From the IMG/VR virus record IMGVR_UViG_3300023198_000515, positions 1 through 46,985 of that record: DNA of 46,985 nt; one strand, 5' to 3'. The stretch is from a virus. Below, piece after piece: positions 1,657-45,000 of the stretch (its first letter is position 1; every line of letters begins with the position of its first letter). The position numbers were made by a program, and so were the translations under genes. Below the pieces are notes generated by a model that ran no database searches, had not been told where the DNA came from, and was given only the letters and a program-made list of their open reading frames with translations.

Positions 1657-4600
1657 ATGAATAATACAGCAGAAAAACTTGAGTACCAAGCTCAAATGGA
1701 AGATATGCTTGGTCTTAGCAAACAAGCTTTTGCAAGGACTATCTGGGATGACCCAGAAAAAGCTAAATCTCTGTGGGGGTTTTGGAAAGCTTTCGCTCAT
1801 GAGTATTCTGAAAATGTCGATAGAAAGACTATGGCTCAAATGGAGATGCGTAGGATTGAAGCTATTATGCTAAAAATGACCGATATCAATACCGGTTTTT
1901 ATGGTACTAAAGCTTCATCATATATCAATGATGTTGATTCAACTGCAACTGATATAGAAGAAATCCTACCTGAATCTAATGAATCAGAGTCTGAAGAGCA
2001 AGGTAAAGTCGTACCTCTTCACAAAGTGAAGGATTTAGGCGACAAACCACTTCAAGCAGATATATCACAAGCTGCAAGAGAATTGCTTGCTGAAGGCAAG
2101 GAAGAAGACGCATTAGCGTTAGCAAGACAGTACCTTGGTAAAGGTAATTACACTCCTCGTAAGGAGAAGACAACACCTAAGCCTTGGGAAGAAAATCAAA
2201 TTAGTGGTTGGATTAGGAATCTTAAGAAAGGCCCAAAACCTATTGAGACATCTAAACCACCTGCTACGGATAGTGAATCAATGGAGTTTGGAAAACATAA
2301 GACTACGCTTGGTGCGGAGACTCATGCTTTGAAAGACTTCTCTGAACGTTATGTTAAACTTGCTACTGGTGGTTCTGAAGATGCTTTGGCAGCTGAAGAT
2401 CTTGCTGGTATATTCTTTAAGCACCGTAATTACAGTGCTAAGCAAGTTCAAGTATGGAAAGAGACAGTTACTAAAAATAACGATATCTCCAGGCTTGACC
2501 ACTTTGCTGTACTTGGTACAATGGGTACCCTTACTGCAGAGTTAGTGGATAATGACAAAAAGTATGAGAAGATTAATGAAGCAATCAAAAATGCTATGCA
2601 AGACATCCAAGTTACTAAGCCTGCGCTTGAGAATAAAGATGGTTTGCTTACATATCTGATTACTGAAATAGGACGTAAGTTCTATGACAATCTTATCAAT
2701 ACTGCGTTCGAAAGCTCTGAAGGTACAGTGTATGAAATGTACACTAAACTTCATGTTAACGACTTTATAGAAAGGGTCGTTACTGCAAATTTTACCGAAT
2801 CAGACTCCCAAGTCACAACGAACGAGCAGGCCACCCAGGAACAAACTGGCGAGGCTTCCGATTCTAATATTACTGTTGAGGAACTCAAAGAACAGCAATC
2901 AACGGGTAAAACTGTTAAAGCTGTTACAGTAGCTATTATTAGGAATCAAGGTGTTATTGAAGATGCTTTTGCGAGTGAACAATATAACAAGTTTGTTGGT
3001 GAAGGTAAGGAGTATGAAACAAGGGAAGAACTCGACAGGTACGTCGATGAAAATTTCCAAGAGTGGCATGACGACTATAGGAATGGTCTTACAACCTTCC
3101 CACTTGATATATTCAATGAAGTAGTTGAAACAGCTTACTTAAAAGAAATTTCTGTGGAAGATATTATTAAGGAAGCTAAAGGACATGTTATTAAACCTAA
3201 TGGTGGTGTATTAGTCCTCATTAGGCCAGATGAAGAAGGTAAAACTTTTGAAGTCAAATTTAACAAGCCTGAGGATATCGATGATTATGTCAAAGGTATT
3301 TATAACTCTCTTGATAAGGAGAAAGCGGAAAAAGAGGCACAAGCCAATGATGAGACCGAAACTGTAGAAGAATCCACTATTGAAGTAGAGGAGACAACTG
3401 AAAAGCGAGTGGAAGAAGAGTCATCAGCAGACAAAAGTAGTGGGGAAGCTATACAACCTGCCGTTGAGTCTAAAAATACTACTGGTCCTACAGTTAAAGT
3501 TAAGTATATTGAAGATGTCTGTTATAAAGCGATTAAAGGAGGCCAAGATATGGCCTATCTCATGAAGGATAGGAAGATACAGCAACTGGTAGCAGAAGGT
3601 GGTACTATTACTGGTCCCACTAAAGATATCAGTCAATCTTATGATACTTCATCAGAATCGTTTGAAAAGCTTAAGGCAGATCTTGAGCAAATTTACGCAA
3701 GAATTACAACCAAGAAGGGTGGTAAGAAAACTATTGTTGAAAAAGTAAAAGAAATCACGTCTATTAGTAAAGGTGAGGAGCCTGAAACTAAAGAGACAGA
3801 AGTAGTTGATAAACAGCCAGATAAAGGCGAGGAGTCTAAGTCTACCAATACTGTTGATACAACACCTACTTCAATTAACTCTTTTGCTGAAGCGCAAATA
3901 GCTGGCTTTCAACTCATCAAAGGGGGTTGTACGAAGTATGATCTAATGTCCTGGGGTAAGGAAGTGTTTTTAAATCGTAAGATGAAGGAACATGCTAATG
4001 ATGAACAAAAGTTCACTACCCAGGAAAAAGTAGAAATATTCATGAAAGGATTCTTTAAAGACTTTCTTAAAAGTGAAGAACCTGCTAAGGAGGAAACAAA
4101 AGAGCCTGGTCTTACATTGGAACATCTTACTCAAACTGTTATTGATAACAGTAAAGAGGAAGGTATGACATATGCTAAACTATGTATCATGGTTAAAACA
4201 GCATGTAAGAATAGTACATTGGATCTCTCTACAACAGATCAACTCAGACTTGTTCGTGAAAATGCAGAAGAACTGTATAAAGTTTTCCGTGACAAGCAAT
4301 ACCAGCAGAATGAAGAGACCAAAAACAAAGTTTTCGTACCAGAAAAGGTATCCGAGACAGAACCCACTGTGTGGGATAAAGTCAAAGGATTTACCACAAT
4401 TGGTGAGATCTATGCAATATCAATGGAGCTTATTGAGACCGGAGAGTGGCAGAGAGCACTTAATATAGCTACTGAGCTTATTAAGTTAGGCAACATTACT
4501 GATGCACAGAATTGGGATGATAATCAAATTTCTCAATGGTTTGGTACTAATGTACTTAAAAAACCTACAGTAAAAAAAGCTGAAAAGGTTGAGGAGGTTA

Positions 4601-6061: not shown

Positions 6062-6447
6062 ATCAACCAAACAGTATTGAGAAGCCTGTCATAAATGATG
6101 CTGCAATGTCTATATTCAAATACTTATTTGCAAGTAGGATAATGGATTTAGAAGAACAGGGTAGTCAATTGGCAACATTCTCGAAGCAAGCTCAGATTCA
6201 ACATTTAAGAGGTGTTATGAAGAAGTTTATGTTCAGTAGAGCATATTCATTCTTTAAAATAGTCATACTACCTAACAATGGTATGGACCTTGCAAATGCT
6301 GAAGTCTCACTCGAAATTAAAAATTTTGATTATTTCATCAAAGACCTTGAACCTAAACGGTATGTACTAGCAATCAGTTGTACCTGGGATACATTCACTG
6401 CCTTTGAAGAGACCGTCGACAAAAATCTTATAAAACTAGGGTTATGA
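6058..6447 (+). CDS. hypothetical protein
   Basis: A 129-residue protein of unknown family. The N-terminal half is predicted helical (MSIFKYLFASRIMDLEE). The second half alternates hydrophobic strands. It overlaps the gene before it and the adenylate-forming enzyme gene after it by four-base ATGA junctions, the classic sign of translational coupling. A role together with the ANL enzyme is therefore possible, but it has no DSL serine motif or other mark of an acyl or peptidyl carrier protein. Confidence 0.6.
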   Translation: MNQPNSIEKPVINDAAMSIFKYLFASRIMDLEEQGSQLATFSKQAQIQHLRGVMKKFMFSRAYSFFKIVILPNNGMDLANAEVSLEIKNFDYFIKDLEPKRYVLAISCTWDTFTAFEETVDKNLIKLGL

Positions 6448-8012
6448 GAAGACTGATCTTAAATATAATCGAAAGTAATTGGGATCGACAAATATTTGTT
6501 GGTACACCAATGTCAACCTTCTTCATTGATATATATAGATATTTAATATTATTAAATACAGTATATGTTGATGATACTCACTTGATTGCTATACATGGTA
6601 GACGTTCAAGGAATTGGATTGCCTTATACTTAGCTTGTTGGATTGCAAACGTAAACTTTATAATACTATCACCTAGTCTAGAGAGGGTTAAGTTGTTAAG
6701 TATATTACAGTTTGTAAATGCAAGTTATTTATTTACTCAACCATATCTAATAAACTTTTGTCATAACGATATGAAAAATGTACCTTTTCTTAAAGGGGCA
6801 TATGATATGGATAACGTAGAACAAATATCACTACGACAAAGTGTATACAATCAAAATTTAACATTAAACTTAGTTAACAGGCTAGATCCTAGTTTGGTGA
6901 CAAAGCGGTTGTTAAAAGAAATAAAGAAGATGTTTGGTCCAAGTAAAACCCATGATGTGATGAACCTTACACCTGGTATAACTCATCATGTTAACAAGAT
7001 AGTTGTATCAACCAGTGAATCAATATTATCCACTGTTCTCAATGGGATTGAAACACTACCATTCACTTCACAACATTCCATATATTCAAAAGTAGAATTT
7101 GCAGACTCACATGTACTATCTATACTTATACCATTTATCAAAGGGTGTACGTTTGGAGAAATAAGAGATGAAGCAAATGTTATTATTGAATCAAGAGAAA
7201 CCTTTGAAAGAATGTGGTATGATACCGTAGATTCTATATTAGAGTCTAAGATAATATACTGGTTCTTTAAAAAGCGTGCTTTTAGTAAGTTATTTGAAAA
7301 ATATGCAAGTGAAAGTATAAAACGTCATTATGGTAACATGGAATATGTTATTGTACATAATGGTGATATACACGAACGCTGTTTAACTACAGCAAAAAAA
7401 GCTTTACCATTGATTGTAACGTATGGTAGTCAAGAGACTAATCAATTAGTTGCAGTTAATGACTTTTCAACACCTGCATATAATGTACCAGGGTCTGTAG
7501 GGAGACTATTTGGTACACCTCATGTAACTAAGAAAGGTGAATTACTTTTAATGTCTAAAGGAGTATTTAAGAAGTATTTGAGTGACGAAGCTCATACTAA
7601 TTATATTCTTGGACCAGACGGTAGTATACGTACCTCTGATCACTTCACCTGGAAAGACGATCTTCTTACATACAATGGCCGAATGGATGCTGTATATGAG
7701 AAGAATGGTAACATTGTACATTTAGATAAGATTGAACGTCATATAAGGAGCTTACCGTGCATTGAGGAATGTGTACTGCTACCTTGGGAAGATGGTTTGG
7801 TACATCTAAATGTAAAAGTGAACCTACGTTTCGTTGAGGCACACAAACAAGGGTGGAATGAAACAACAAGAATATTAAACAGTTTTTATGATAGCCTAAG
7901 AGCTAGTTTTACTAACTCTATGATATTAGGGAAGGCAGTTATTTCCCCAGTACCACTTAAAAAGGCTTTCAATGGGAAAGTTAGGACATACCTATATAGA
8001 GATCCATCCTAA
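6444..8012 (+). CDS. ANL-superfamily adenylate-forming enzyme homologue
   Basis: A 522-residue protein with the overall order of acyl-CoA synthetase/AMP-ligase enzymes. The N-terminal part has the early 'xxGRRSRNWIALYLACW' helix. Residues 327-332 are YGSQET (A5 motif YGxTE). PGSVGR follows. A TSD with D399 matches the ribose-binding TGD, and GRMDAVYEKNG from G412 matches the hinge motif A8. PLKKAFNGKVR with K512 matches the A10 catalytic lysine. Known ANL enzymes activate a carboxylate with ATP to an acyl-AMP. The phosphate-binding loop (about 174-185, NLTPGITHHVNK) is degenerate compared with TSGTTGxPKG, so activity may be altered or lost. No carrier protein gene is adjacent. It closes the 4998-8012 operon and is followed by the long gene-free region. 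Confidence 0.75.
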   Translation: MRRLILNIIESNWDRQIFVGTPMSTFFIDIYRYLILLNTVYVDDTHLIAIHGRRSRNWIALYLACWIANVNFIILSPSLERVKLLSILQFVNASYLFTQPYLINFCHNDMKNVPFLKGAYDMDNVEQISLRQSVYNQNLTLNLVNRLDPSLVTKRLLKEIKKMFGPSKTHDVMNLTPGITHHVNKIVVSTSESILSTVLNGIETLPFTSQHSIYSKVEFADSHVLSILIPFIKGCTFGEIRDEANVIIESRETFERMWYDTVDSILESKIIYWFFKKRAFSKLFEKYASESIKRHYGNMEYVIVHNGDIHERCLTTAKKALPLIVTYGSQETNQLVAVNDFSTPAYNVPGSVGRLFGTPHVTKKGELLLMSKGVFKKYLSDEAHTNYILGPDGSIRTSDHFTWKDDLLTYNGRMDAVYEKNGNIVHLDKIERHIRSLPCIEECVLLPWEDGLVHLNVKVNLRFVEAHKQGWNETTRILNSFYDSLRASFTNSMILGKAVISPVPLKKAFNGKVRTYLYRDPS

Positions 8013-8019
8013 TTAGTAC

Positions 8020-9650
8020 AACAATTTCGTTAATACCTTAACCGTCCCGTTTTAACCTAGTATGATTTACTACAAAGGGTATAAGTGTAGTTAAACTCAT
8101 TAGGAGGTATTAACGTCGATAGTGTATAATCTGGAGTCAGATGCCAGTGTGATACGTGAGTGGAAACATGCATGGAAGCGCTCGTATTGGGCAAACTTGG
8201 TACGCAAAACGTTGTGAGAGGTCACAACCATAAGCCTTTTTATACTGACGCAACATATATGAGTAGTGGAAGGGGTGGGATTCCCCGGTTCTAAAATCTA
8301 TCAAGACTACCGAAGAAAACATATTAAGTTAACAGAAACGATGACGTTATGGCGAGGGGCAACCATGCCTACACTTTACTATATATGCTCACTGAGAGGT
8401 GGGGGATAGTATTGTGTAATGGGGGGTCCAGATAAGACTGGATAACGTAGAGGAACACAGTACCTTTTATGACTACTATGGGTAACCAAACCCTTTGTGA
8501 AATGAATGTAGTGGCGCGCTTCGCTGCGAGAACCCAAGTGCGAAAGTTACTACAGTCTCTGTAGGGAACCGAGACTGACTGAAATAAGCGGGACCTTAAT
8601 TCATTCTAGCCGTTTGATGGCAAGTATGTGCAGAAGCATTACTGAATGAAGGACAACCGTCAAGTATATTTGTCAAGTCTATTATTTTGTTGTACTTAAT
8701 TCGAGTACCTTTTATAGTATCGTACCCAAGAGTATCTCTACCGCAACAGCATCGGAACATATATTATCTATCGCTGAGAAGCATTTATAGAAATATCGAG
8801 AGTAGTACAAAGGAGCTTTGTCGTAAGCAAAGTGCCAAAAAAGTTCATTATATATCTTACTTCCCCAAGTTTTCAAAATATACATTGAACATATGGCTTC
8901 GTAGGTTAGAATCCTACCAATACTTAAAGTGAAAAAATCAAGTTGAGAATTTGGTAATAGCATATCATTACCCTTACAGTCGACCGTGACGTCGCTAAAA
9001 ACTAACGTATTTTACTGACTATGCAAAAGCCTTCGAGATTAAGGCGAGTCCCTCTGCGTATCTAGGGGTCCAAACCTTAGATTTTACGATTAACACTCGT
9101 GTCACAAGACGTTAGACAGAGGTAATAGCAAGCACAGGCTGAGTTGTGCGATATATAGACTCAGATGGTGAAAAGTAATTCATACATGCGTGAAACGTCG
9201 AATTTGTCTAAAAGTTAGCAACTGCGAGTTTCTCATAATAGACTACTATGTCGTTTTCAAACATAACAAACTATGTCGGAAATATGAGTAAGCGAGTAGA
9301 CTCCTATGTGAAAGTAGGAAATAGCGCTATGAAGCGAAGTAACCAATCTATACAGAAAATGTAAACATCCAATTTAGGAGCGTCTAGAGAAGACAAAACA
9401 ATACATTCCGAAAGTGCCATCAGATGGCGGAGTTAGGAATTAAAGCAACTCAACCGAAGCGGTTGGGATAGTTACCGATAACCAGATACTTATACCCTCA
9501 CTAGGACGTACTTTATAGTTGTCAATAGGAGTTAAATAAGGTTGGGGCATGAAACCCCCACGGCAAAAACATTAGAGCAAACCCTGCGGTTTACAGTCAC
9601 GACACAGTGGCCATGGTCTCAGAAGGTACTATCCACGCTTCAATATTATT
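8020..9650 (+). ncRNA. candidate large structured non-coding RNA (~1.6 kb)
   Basis: No convincing gene lies between 8012 and 9668; open frames on either strand are at most 83 residues and do not look like proteins. The plus strand has very dense pairing. Stems include 8028-8038/8105-8115 (11 bp, perfect), 8211-8217/8222-8228 (7 bp, 4-nt loop), 8553-8559/8571-8577 (7 bp), 8600-8606/8644-8650 (7 bp), 8901-8905/8913-8917 (T-loop-like), 8953-8958/8967-8972, 9002-9008/9109-9115 (long range), 9139-9144/9159-9164, 9416-9420/9424-9428 inside 9405-9409/9436-9440, 9451-9456/9460-9465 and 9579-9583/9588-9592. Purine-rich internal loops (GAAA, GGAA) are frequent and composition differs from the flanking genes. 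The size and density recall large ornate phage RNAs (GOLLD, ROOL), but I cannot assign it to a known class. The strand is inferred from neighbours. Exact ends are unknown. Confidence 0.7.
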
Positions 9651-9667
9651 AATTTAAATTATTTGTT

Positions 9668-10102
9668 ATGCGAATTAAAGAAGTATATACACTAATCAAA
9701 AGTGATGTACCTGAGATTTGTAACAGACAAATAGTGAAGGATCAAGATGTTGGTGGCATCAAACTCGTCTATTGGAGACGTAGAATGATGGTGAAAGACA
9801 TCAGTTTCGGTCCTATCGAATTCTCTTATCCAGTGAGAATCTTTAAAAGAAAAAAGGTTGTATTCCTCAGACCTTATAAAGACCACTGGGATCATGAAAG
9901 AAATAGGTTACCATATAATTATTGGGGTAAGACATCAAACCCTTTAACCAATATGTGGATAACTGTTGAACAGGATTATAAAGTATGGTCTAACACTACT
10001 GTTAGATTCAAAGATCAGGTTACTGATCATAGTATGATCAAGTCTCTCAAATCAATTGAAGAGACCTTTTCAGTTTTTATTAATCAAAATAAATTACAAT
10101 GA
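9668..10102 (+). CDS. hypothetical protein
   Basis: A 144-residue basic protein, first gene after the 1.6 kb structured region, with an AT-rich leader before its ATG. It is rich in aromatic and basic residues (YWRRRMMVK, RIFKRKKVVFLRPYKDHWDHER). No known motif, signal peptide or membrane helix was seen. It overlaps the next gene by an ATGA-type junction (stop at 10102, next start at 10099), so they are probably translated together. Confidence 0.65.
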   Translation: MRIKEVYTLIKSDVPEICNRQIVKDQDVGGIKLVYWRRRMMVKDISFGPIEFSYPVRIFKRKKVVFLRPYKDHWDHERNRLPYNYWGKTSNPLTNMWITVEQDYKVWSNTTVRFKDQVTDHSMIKSLKSIEETFSVFINQNKLQ

Positions 10103-13222: not shown

Positions 13223-15217
13223 ATGGAATTCAAATTAAGTGATAAATTTATTAATAAGTACAGAGATATAAAACCAGTATTTGGTTTCAATGGATTAGGA
13301 GAGTTAGTGTACTTACGTACCTACTCTAGAATTAAAGAAGATGGAACAAATGAGAAATGGTTTGAAACTGTACGGCGTGTTGTAGAAGGCACATATTTAG
13401 TACAAAAGAAACACATTACCAAAGCAGGTCTTGGCTGGGATGAAGACAAAGGTCTATCCTCTGCTAAAGAAATGTACGATAGAATGTTCAATATGAAATT
13501 CCTACCACCAGGTAGGGGTTTATGGGCTATGGGTACTGACATTATTAATGACAGAGAATTATTCGTAGCACTTAACAATTGTGCATTTGTATCTACAGAT
13601 AACCTGAAAGAAGATCTATCGAAACCATTCGAATTTATGATGGATTTCTCTATGCTTGGCGTAGGGGTTGGTTTTGATATAAAAGGTGCAGGTCAAACAT
13701 CCATTCTAAGGCCCCATACAGGCCCATATGGCGACGATCGTACCTTTAGTGTACCCGACACACGGGAGGGGTGGTTAGAGTCCCTTAAACGGGCTCTAAA
13801 TGCGTTCTTTAAAGGGGACGTATATCCTGAGTTCGATTATAGTTTAATTAGAGCTAAGGGTGAACCTATTAAAACCTTTGGTGGCAAGTCCTCTGGACCT
13901 GAACCATTAAAGAAATTACATACCCAGATATTCAACTTACTCACCACCCATATAGGTGAGAAAATAACTGGTCAGGATATTGCTGACATTATGAATATGA
14001 TTGGTGTATGTGTAGTAGCAGGTAATGTTAGAAGAACTGCTCAAATAGTATTTGGTGATCACAATGACAAAGAGTATCTTAAGTTTAAGGACTATCATTG
14101 GGATGAGAAGTCACAGACCTATAAAGGGACTAAGACTGAGCGTGCTGAATATGGTTGGGCTTCTAACAACAGTATATTTGCAGAAGTAGGAATGGATTAT
14201 ACTGAAGTAGCAAATCAAACTGCATTGAATGGAGAGCCTGGTTATGCTTGGCTTGAAAACATGCAGGAATATAGTAGGATGGGTGATAAACCTGATTATA
14301 AAGATCATAGAGTTAAGGGTGGTAACCCTTGCCTTGAACAATCACTTGAATCATACGAGATGTGCTGTTTAGTTGAAACGTTTCCAAGCAGACATAAGGA
14401 TGTGTTAGATTTCAATAGAACCCTGAAGTTTGCATATATGTATGCTAAAACAGTAACTTTGGGTACAACCCATTGGACAGAAACGAATAGGGTTCAATTA
14501 CGTAATAGGCGCATAGGTGCGTCAGTTAGTGGTGTTGCACAGTTCTTAGATACCCATGGTATTGATGAATTGAAACACTGGTTACATAGTGGTTATGATA
14601 CTATACAGTATTATGATGATGTCTATAGTGATTGGTTTGCAGTACCAAAGAGTATCAAGACTACAAGTATTAAACCCTCTGGTACAGTATCATTGTTACC
14701 TGGTGTAACACCTGGTGTACATTACCCAGAGAGTAATTATTACATTCGCAGAATTAGACTAGCTAATAACTCTGAACTTATACCATACATTAACACTGCT
14801 GGTTATAAAGTAGAAGCAGATATGGCTGATCCTGAACATACTATAGTGGTAGAAATACCAGTAGGTATAAAAGGTATTAGAACCATATCTGAAATTAGTA
14901 TGTGGGAACAACTTGAATTAGCTGCATTTATGCAAGAGCATTGGGCAGATAATCAAGTATCATGTACTATTACTTTTAAAGAACATGAGAAGGATCAGAT
15001 AGCTAATGCATTGAATTATTTCCAATACCGATTAAAAGGTGTTAGTTTCTTACCAAAGATGGATTCGGCAAGCTACCCACAAATGCCATACGAAGAAATT
15101 ACTAAAGAGGAATATACCAAACTTATCAAAAAGATTAAACCTCTTCAATTCAATGGTGTTGGTGTTGATTCAAAACCTGAAATGTTTTGTGATACTGATA
15201 CTTGTGAAATAGTATAA
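13223..15217 (+). CDS. nrdJ: adenosylcobalamin-dependent ribonucleoside-triphosphate reductase (class II)
   Basis: A 664-residue enzyme that reduces ribonucleotides to deoxyribonucleotides with a cobalamin-generated thiyl radical, supplying dNTPs for phage replication. It resembles the monomeric Lactobacillus-type reductase (about 739 residues). LPPGRGLWAMGT is present. C120 lies in NNCAF. NPCLE gives C370 (thiyl radical site) and E372, and C381 is 11 residues after C370. The C-terminal redox pair is C656/C661 (CDTDTC). Spacing of C370 to C381 and of the C-terminal pair matches the family reference (C408/C419, C731/C736). Needing no oxygen and no second subunit, it suits an anaerobic gut host that has B12. 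It forms its own unit between two long-stem terminators. Confidence 0.93.
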   Translation: MEFKLSDKFINKYRDIKPVFGFNGLGELVYLRTYSRIKEDGTNEKWFETVRRVVEGTYLVQKKHITKAGLGWDEDKGLSSAKEMYDRMFNMKFLPPGRGLWAMGTDIINDRELFVALNNCAFVSTDNLKEDLSKPFEFMMDFSMLGVGVGFDIKGAGQTSILRPHTGPYGDDRTFSVPDTREGWLESLKRALNAFFKGDVYPEFDYSLIRAKGEPIKTFGGKSSGPEPLKKLHTQIFNLLTTHIGEKITGQDIADIMNMIGVCVVAGNVRRTAQIVFGDHNDKEYLKFKDYHWDEKSQTYKGTKTERAEYGWASNNSIFAEVGMDYTEVANQTALNGEPGYAWLENMQEYSRMGDKPDYKDHRVKGGNPCLEQSLESYEMCCLVETFPSRHKDVLDFNRTLKFAYMYAKTVTLGTTHWTETNRVQLRNRRIGASVSGVAQFLDTHGIDELKHWLHSGYDTIQYYDDVYSDWFAVPKSIKTTSIKPSGTVSLLPGVTPGVHYPESNYYIRRIRLANNSELIPYINTAGYKVEADMADPEHTIVVEIPVGIKGIRTISEISMWEQLELAAFMQEHWADNQVSCTITFKEHEKDQIANALNYFQYRLKGVSFLPKMDSASYPQMPYEEITKEEYTKLIKKIKPLQFNGVGVDSKPEMFCDTDTCEIV

Positions 15218-42000: not shown

Positions 42001-45000
42001 TGAGTGTCTGGTTCTGACTCAGTAGCAGTAGCAAACCTGTCACCACTAGAGCCTACACCAAACCACCTCTTATACATATCCTCAGCTACATCCGCCTCAG
42101 AATTAGGATCCTTTGCAAAGAATGCAGGATCAGCAAAGAATACCTTCTCTGACTCCATAGTAGCCATAGAGCCATTGATCATAAAATCAGATAATATCTT
42201 AGCCACTACATAGGTATTTCTTTTAGTTTCATCGTTAATACTACTTTCAGCATCTAATATACCAGCCTCTTCACTATATAAAGCACTAAGTTTTAGATTA
42301 CCACCCTTCATTGTAATGGCACCAATCTTAGCAGCATGTTTATATTCTTTTTTAAATAATCCATTCAATATACCTGATATAATTGCCTTCTCTTTTTCTT
42401 CACTGAGGTTATTAATCTTAGTAGGATCCTTGTATTGATTGAATGCCTTGAAGTGTATAAACTTAAATGCGTTACCCTTAGCTATATTTAAATTACCAGT
42501 ATAATGGTAATTCTTCACTAGGCTATTTTTGATTGCTTTCTTACGCTCATCAGACGTCTCTGGATTAAGATATTCTTTTCTTAAATCATGAGCAGCAAGT
42601 ACCCGTTCTTTCTCATCTAAAAAGTAACCATGGAATAAGTCTAATACCTCTTTATTAAATTCCAATTCAATACCTTTGTTTGTGATCTTTATATCAGTGG
42701 CTACATCCTTAAGTATAGGTATACCTGACATAAAGTAGAACTGCTTCCTATTAGCCATGACAGGTAATGGTAGGAAACCAAAGCCAATGGCATTAAACCT
42801 AACCAGATAGTCCTCTAATCTAACAATCTGTTTATAATCCCTACCCTGGTCCTCACGAGTTCTTTCTTTAAGTGAACTATATGACATCAGATAAAAGGCA
42901 TCACGTATCTCTGCATCTTCTTGTAATAGTTTAAAGACCCTTGAATGCTTATTGTTTAACAAACCAAGTCTGGTCTTAAGATACTCATCGTCATGTTTAA
43001 GTTTACGGACTATATCCGTAGCCATATTGTTTGGTGAGTAAGTAAAGTATTTATTACCATTTGCCCCTAATACTACATTTTCTTGTAATTCAGGATGTGT
43101 AAGGGCATATGCTTTACTTATAGCCCTACTAGATATACTTGATAAGTATATAACAGGATTATTAATAAAGGAAGATTGAACCTTAAGTATATCCTCATCT
43201 TCCGTTTCTTCCTCTTCGGTCTTTATCACTGCTTCTTGATATAGTACACTACTTGTACCAAACACTTTCTTAGCGTCACCATCTAGCATTGTAAACAACG
43301 AGTCAAGATCTGTAGCTTCAGTATAAAATTCACTAAGTGCAGTATATATAGTAGCATCATCAACCTCAATGTGTAATCTATTATACAACTCCACTAATTT
43401 TTTTACATGCTTATCTACATACTTATTTTCTATTCTACTGTTATTAACATCTTCTTCTACTGCCTCTATCAATGCCCTATAGTCTTTTTCTAACTCAACG
43501 AAAAAATCCTCGTCTAGAACCTTCTTACCTTCCTTGTCAGTATTGACGATCTGTTGATCTAGGTAGAATCTTTCATTCCAACCTAATGTTTGATTTCTAG
43601 CAAGTTCAGTCTCACTATTACCTTCATAGCTAAATACCCAATCAGCATTCTCTCCCTTGTTATCTCTACCAAATGTGAATGTGATAAAATCATTCTTCCA
43701 TATGTTAAATGTCTTCCTAAACTGATTCTTTTGGTTTTCAGAACCCACCTCTAGTTTCTTAGCTAACTCAATATACCATGGCTTATCCAGTGCTTGTGCC
43801 CCTAATACTTTAAGTTCATCTATCATATCCTGTATATCCTCAAACTCATTCAGATTCAATAGAAGTGAGGACCATACCTCATTAAACTCCACAAATGGTT
43901 GTATACCAGTGAGTAAATCATATTCTGTGGATGCGTGTAAAGTATGAATAAAGAACTTCACACTAGCCATAGCATTGTCTTTAAGTGAAACCTCCCATGA
44001 ACTACGTTTATCTACATCTAACCTACCAGTAATCTCTTCGTCAGAATCCAGAGCCTCAATATCTTCTTCACTTAGACTAGCATTCCTAGCTTCAATACCT
44101 ACAGTGCTGAAATGATCTATCACCATATCCCAGAAGATAGCTTTGTTCCTACCTACTTCTTTTAGAACTAAGTTGAATTGATCTGCTGCAGCCTGCTTCT
44201 CCTCAGTTTCTTGTTTATATTCATCAAGATCTTTTGTTGTACGTTTAATCCAATCAAATAGTGGACCTGCTTCAGGTTGTTCCCCTTCCCTTATAGAATT
44301 AAGATCTGTAATAGGACTTAACTGTATAGCCCTATCTGCTAGTAATGTAACTATATCTTTCCTGTGTTTACTACTAGTGATAGTTTGAAACTTATGTTTA
44401 CCAACAGCCATAGCAACCTCACCAGGCTTGATGTTATTAATGTTTTCTTCTAATACCTTATTGTTAGCATACTTACCAGCATATATTTGCTTAAACATTT
44501 GATCTACTTCGTTCTCCCTAAGTCTACTTGGACCAGCGAATATACTCTTTATCCAATCATATATTTGTTGGAAGAAGCGACGTATAGCACTATGTTGTTT
44601 AGGTTTCTCCGTCTGAGCCTCTTCGGATAATACGAATTTCCTAAATTCCTCAGCAAGTACTTCTTCTACCTCTCTATTAGTAGCATCTTCACCTAACTTG
44701 TATACTTGTTTAGCAACACGATATAGATTTAATCTCTCTGTTTCAGTAAGGTATCCCAGACTAACCCTGTGCCATGCTTCATGATATAGAGCTCCTTCTG
44801 CAGCTCCTTCGTATACTTTAATTGCGTCATGTGAGTATAGAGCAAATGCACGTCTACCAGTACCCGCAAGTGGTAATAAACGTTTAACAATCTCTATCTT
44901 ATTCATACCAACTCTAGAAGCAACCCATGCCATCTCCTTATTGAGATCTATCTTACGAACAATTTTAGGAGTACTCTCCATAGCAATAGTAAACTGATCG

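Follow-up and report, generated by a model that had tools for sequence, protein, structure and literature searches.

Gene layout of the locus

The window, as the whole 46,985-bp virus record analysed here is called, encodes a DNA polymerase that matches PHROG 1252 and is nearest to those of crAss-like phages, with the Suoliviridae giving the best match, so that an earlier guess at a crAss-like phage was correct. These phages rank with the most abundant viruses found in human guts. The genes of the window are otherwise closely tiled, the runner-up gap between tiled ORFs measuring 323 nt, and by far the largest intergenic gap is a stretch of 1,655 nt (8013-9667) between the ORFs at 6444-8012 and 9668-10102 (Table 1). 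AlphaFold gives no confident fold (pLDDT 37) for the 144-aa protein encoded downstream. Further along, at 13223-15217, this environmental crAss-like phage encodes a ribonucleotide reductase with matches to the B12-dependent class II domains PF17975 and PF21995. Neither tRNA nor tmRNA genes were found in the 47-kb window.

The first-pass annotation of this DNA had read about 1.65 kb as lacking a credible reading frame on either strand, and this is borne out: the longest open frame in any of the six frames of the gap is 104 aa, within the range of shuffled sequences (mean about 90 aa, 95th percentile 116-125 aa). Peptide matches among the homologous gaps of related phages are spread alike over every frame, and therefore reflect DNA similarity and not coding; the same six-frame comparison, which also served as a check for missed genes, found no conserved codon structure. 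Promoter-like sites occur at chance level only, and all terminator-like sites are on the minus strand.

Table 1. Features of the non-coding region, its neighbours and its gut counterpart (window positions unless a record is named)
Feature	Position	Strand	Sequence or evidence
Upstream neighbour, 522-aa AMP-binding-like protein	6444..8012	+	PF00501, E 1.5e-7; adjoins the RNA in relatives too
Large structured non-coding RNA region, predicted; ends approximate	8013..9667	+	no frame; homologous gaps; RNAalifold energy and covariation above shuffles; strand bias
Long stem	8028..8115	+	8028-8038 CGTTAATACCT / 8105-8115 AGGTATTAACG
Conserved 14-mer	8163..8176	+	GAAACATGCATGGA; identical in 4/4 environmental homologs
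Best conserved module, model R1 (72-nt)	8252..8319	+	stem 8263-8267/8306-8310 around hairpin 8272-8275/8283-8286
Neighbouring hairpins 8520-8525/8539-8544 and 8553-8559/8571-8577	8520..8577	+	CAGTCTC/GAGACTG; CTATCAT/GTGATAG; CCATCTT/TAGATGG
Helix 8688-8693/8746-8751	8688..8751	+	TGTTGT/ACAGCA, TGTTAG/CTAACA, TGTTGG/CCAACA, TACCAT/ATGGTA
Hairpin TTTG/CAAA (relatives CCCA/TGGG), loop TCGTAAG	8817..8831	+	4/4 pairs doubly substituted, 0 broken
Hairpin GTAGG-TTAGAAT-CCTAC, T-loop-like 7-nt loop	8901..8917	+	G006 and G004 have a similar hairpin, G010 a less clear one
Stem 9002-9008/9109-9115	9002..9115	+	CTAACGT/ACGTTAG
3′ hairpin	9595..9612	+	AGTCAC/GTGGCC; two relatives read GATTAC/GTAATT and TGTTGT/ATAACA; absent from G010 as aligned
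Downstream neighbour, 144 aa, no assigned function	9668..10102	+	kept beside the RNA in relatives
Gut RNA, unannotated, structured	L037 14443-16551; L038 9278-11424; 21 further Suoliviridae sequences		2.0-2.5 kb

Environmental relatives

Three relatives retrieved from IMG/VR by their DNA polymerases (G004, G006 and G008) carry a homolog of the AMP-binding gene (24-25% identity), a gap of 1.6-1.8 kb and then a homolog of the 144-aa gene; the gap of G008 is identical to that of G004. A fourth (G010, 69 kb), added by a pattern search with the first shared DNA block, has the same gene order around a gap of 1,673 nt. All four distinct gaps (window, G004/G008, G006 and G010) are thus flanked by the same two genes, whose proteins are only 24-41% identical, and the gaps range in length from 1.59 to 1.77 kb. 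The PF00501 gene itself is kept adjacent to the region in four environmental relatives of this crAss-like phage. Conservation along the gap is patchy and takes the form of short DNA blocks that occur in the same order, with 80% identity over 71 nt at window positions 8252-8318. A blastn search of the phage collection with the window region and a search with the AMP-binding gene alone gave no match, and profiles of the flanking genes recovered known contigs only; one further match, L075, was rejected as due to chance.

Conserved structure of the window RNA

The two halves of the region fold better than dinucleotide shuffles with z scores of -2.5 and -3.0, which are modest on their own, and the real evidence for a structured RNA comes from the comparison of the four homologs. 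RNAalifold assigns the four aligned sequences a consensus energy of -346 kcal/mol, against -257±7 in column-shuffled alignments, and the first three sequences -602 against -481±15. Pairs that are doubly substituted yet fully paired in the four sequences number 64, where shuffled alignments average 43 and never exceed 52. The plus strand folds better than the minus strand in all eight sequences compared. Consensus energy and compensatory changes thus support the original reading of the region as a large structured RNA, and the covariation check that had been proposed for homologous regions found covariation above the level of shuffles. Several helices seen with three sequences become weaker once G010 joins the alignment, which is in part alignment error, and because there are only four distinct environmental sequences, few changes stand behind most single helices.

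The strongest local case is the module at 8252-8319, where 40 of 40 cells are paired, 5 of 10 pairs are changed on both sides, and the covariation score is reached by none of 500 shuffles; structures slid by 1-3 columns leave only 30-55% of the cells paired. Its stem reads GTAGT/ACTAC, GTGAG/CTCAC, GTAGC/GCTAC and GTAAC/GTTAC across the four phages, its hairpin has a T-loop-like loop of 7 nt (TGGGATT), and every varying pair of the 72-nt module is changed on both sides. The covariance model R1 matches homologous sites only, with E values of about 1e-20 to 1e-23. Elsewhere, five of the six pairs of the helix starting at 8688 are doubly substituted and none is broken, and the pair of hairpins starting at 8520 has one unpaired cell each in the three-way alignment (in the four-way alignment the first has three and the second is not listed). 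Two perfect longer-range stems had been picked out by eye, and both are present in the sequence. In the relatives, the outer part of the first (8028-8032/8111-8115) reads TATTC/GAATG, CATTC/GAATG and AATTC/GAATG, with double substitutions and 1 of 20 cells unpaired; no conservation of the second, at 9002-9115, was seen. G-U pairs are present in the kept stems. Inspection by eye for kissing interactions among the hairpin loops gave no firm candidate.

A counterpart in gut Suoliviridae

In the annotated genomes cr52_1 and cr4_1 an empty gap of 2.1 kb is found at nearly this position, with a sigma factor on its upstream side and DNA polymerase B on its downstream side. A set of distinct Suoliviridae or Suoliviridae-like sequences, mostly human gut phages of five subfamilies, was gathered by blastn and by position, and a gap of 2.0-2.5 kb occurs in 23 of 23; no Suoliviridae genome without the gap was encountered among those examined. 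Consensus folding again exceeds shuffles (Loutivirinae -575 against -411±12, Oafivirinae -277 against -131±6, Uncouvirinae -787 against -671±12), and covarying pairs reach about twice the shuffled number or more. In the Loutivirinae alignment, 15 local helices have five or more pairs and two or more double substitutions, against 0-1 in shuffles; one of them is a covarying pseudoknot in which every cell is paired (TAGAAC/GTTCTA, TAAAGC/GCTTTA, TAGGAT/ATCCTA, TAGAGT/ACTCTA). Since a Loutivirinae profile matches the RNA in Uncouvirinae, Bearivirinae and Boorivirinae with E values down to 1e-22, and blastn connects the Loutivirinae RNA with that of Oafivirinae, the gut RNAs are treated here as one family. 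None of them has a match in Rfam. Pattern searches for the gut RNA returned a single contig from IMG/VR, presumably the cr131_1 genome, and a similar pattern gave nine matches in varied GTDB genomes.

Most gut records are blank at the RNA, and a few annotate short or opposite-strand ORFs. Hypothetical proteins are annotated antisense to it at L040 3935-4372, L041 3937-4374, L062 2722-3204 and L066 2568-3074 (minus strand); judged from the sequences, these are most likely spurious because close relatives do not keep them. The gut RNA also has a hairpin and a ribosome-site-like motif ahead of the next gene. The motif ATCAAGnnnnGnnTCAAnAAGG stands directly before the L037 gene at 16552, recurs inside the RNA at about 14820, and is found at the 3′ ends of the L045 group as well, perhaps as a signal for ribosome binding or processing.

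What links the environmental RNAs with those of the gut phages is approximate position, size and style. Both belong to phages of the order Crassvirales, seem to lie in a nearly matching neighbourhood upstream of DNA polymerase B, are of similar size and rich in hairpins with T-loop-like loops, and have no Rfam match; loop types common to both groups include GGG-TGGAAWT-CCC, YCGTAAN and NTCCAAA. In the gut RNA, however, similar loops occur in another order, so that recurrence as tertiary motifs, rather than homology, may explain them. A profile of the environmental RNAs against the gut RNAs gives a best E value of 0.14, and the reverse search 1.5 or none, whereas in the same comparison the gut profile reaches the other subfamilies of gut phages at about 1e-20; the model R1, which covers a single 72-nt module, has no match inside any gut RNA region. 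Placement is near-syntenic but the two groups have different genes alongside, and a single pair (a 175-aa and a 186-aa gene, E 0.011, probability 4%) is a weak candidate for a shared neighbour. Both groups might descend from a single ancient RNA gene, common to much of the Crassvirales, that has diverged past sequence recognition and acts as an RNA machine or particle in infection; this is conceivable but rather doubtful.

Comparison with known RNAs and other crAss-like families

A search of the window against Rfam gives no family at threshold, and a relaxed search gives chance matches only; weak matches to snoJ33, sucC and nuoG fall below the gathering score, come from unrelated lineages and were set aside as chance. 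Of the models named beforehand for this check, those for GOLLD and ROOL match neither the window nor its relatives, the OLE model has no match, and group I and group II intron models have none in the window, its relatives or the gut RNAs, relaxed thresholds included. GOLLD (over 800 nt) and ROOL (659 nt in the solved example) are RNAs of phages and prophages that form RNA-only nanocages (PMC12286853), and OLE RNA, of about 600 nt, occurs in Bacillota (PMC12054373). The window RNA resembles GOLLD in being very large, ornate, phage-encoded and of unassigned function, but is roughly twice as long, does not match it in Rfam and stands in a window without tRNA, whereas GOLLD is often near tRNA islands. 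It shares with ROOL a large, ornate, phage-borne form without a known protein partner, and differs in being at least 2.5 times longer, in lacking a tRNA island and in the Rfam result. OLE is likewise a large conserved RNA with adjoining protein genes; it is, however, cellular and belongs to other hosts, whereas the window RNA is phage-borne and unmatched by its Rfam model. By this sequence-based measure, with no Rfam family matched, the window RNA would be a new RNA class. What it has in common with GOLLD and ROOL goes no further than being, loosely described, large, ornate and phage-borne, and if these were lumped together it would be a new class within that kind.

Other families of crAss-like phages were sampled by one genome each, mostly seen in part. 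In crAss001 (Steigviridae, L072, NC_049977), a Ro60-like gene, which matches TROVE and Ro60 vWA, adjoins a gap of about 0.9 kb on the minus strand (42966-43870). Within this gap is a tRNA-like RNA that the record leaves unannotated; it matches Rfam tRNA at E 1.3e-8, stretched over 144 nt. This was rejected as an instance of the same RNA, being a different thing; it might serve the phage Ro60 protein as a Y-RNA-like partner. The part of one Intestiviridae genome that was viewed shows no gap comparable to that of the window near the DNA polymerase. In the Crevaviridae genome cr127_1 (L073) the largest gap seen, of about 1.4 kb (1782-3227), has no annotation and lies far from the polymerase between minus-strand genes.

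Interpretation

By comparison of the sequences, the region is conserved, structured and non-coding, is oriented on the plus strand and keeps a fixed position; that 8013-9667 is a large structured RNA is close to certain. We propose that it would be the gene for a very large free-standing RNA, read with the replication-side gene block, that would fold as many small hairpins, often with loops of 5-7 nt, several of them T-loop-like. In known large RNAs such loops dock helices together through tertiary contacts, and the RNA is therefore probably compact and built of several domains. Its most likely role would be that of a stable scaffold or particle, acting by itself or together with phage proteins, that accumulates during infection and works like GOLLD and ROOL. 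The discrete transcript, its accumulation, the compact fold and the scaffold action we infer from size, T-loop-like hairpins and likeness to GOLLD and ROOL. A scaffold or particle role is offered tentatively, with a little less than even confidence, and the statement as a whole, a free-standing large RNA gene with such a role, with confidence about evenly divided. The cage, packaging and host-control roles raised in the first-pass annotation would be speculative.

The possible alternatives, in falling likelihood, are several adjacent RNAs, a cis-acting leader, a ribozyme and a DNA element. If the region held not one molecule but at least two distinct structured RNAs, such as small RNAs with a leader of the next gene, this would account for the patchy conservation, the local nature of the majority of supported helices, and the hairpin and motif before the next gene in the gut RNA. 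The total length is nevertheless stable within the environmental group and within the gut group, no clear unconserved spacer is seen and a number of conserved helices reach across 60-90 nt or more, and this reading is unlikely. Less probable again is a giant leader or attenuator controlling translation or transcription of the downstream genes: co-directed genes follow the RNA closely on its own strand, and in gut phages it ends near the ribosome-binding-site-like motif, but at 1.6-2.5 kb it far exceeds known leaders. The gene immediately downstream also differs between the environmental and gut groups, and a free-standing RNA therefore fits better than a leader.

Size and structural complexity would also suit a new large ribozyme or the relic of a mobile intron, and crAss-like phages carry many self-splicing introns (PMC7886860); against this improbable origin stand the unmatched intron models and a location that is intergenic, not within a gene, and fixed in every genome examined, unlike that of mobile introns. 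A replication origin, packaging site or other DNA-level element would be non-coding and near replication genes, as the region is. It is very improbable, since the strand preference in folding is shared by every sequence, the G-U pairs of kept stems and the covarying gut pseudoknot fit RNA, and GC skew has no inflection at the gap. Missed protein genes are the remotest reading: a few gut records do annotate ORFs there, and in Bohxovirus up to 198 aa are open on one strand of the RNA region, but close relatives lose such ORFs, environmental frames are not above chance and peptide matches fall in all six frames.

Implications for crAss-like phages

Full-text searches on non-coding, intergenic or structured RNA in crAss phages returned no description of either RNA, and term searches in the main genome survey, a Crassvirales review and the Zeta-group paper found no mention of such an RNA; subscription papers and bioRxiv lay mostly outside this scope, and an earlier report is possible. 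Existing gut annotations leave the region of about 2 kb blank or fill it with doubtful ORFs. The 2.0-2.5 kb RNA of the Suoliviridae is a finding in its own right even if it should be unrelated to the window RNA. To our knowledge, no phage RNA class is larger than GOLLD and ROOL; at 1.6-2.5 kb, a conserved RNA would exceed both in size, and the gut and window RNAs would rank among the largest structured phage RNAs so far. Were the two indeed one ancient gene, no conserved structured RNA class known from phages would be larger. A conserved RNA of this length would raise the question of what use a phage has for an RNA as large as ribosomal RNA.
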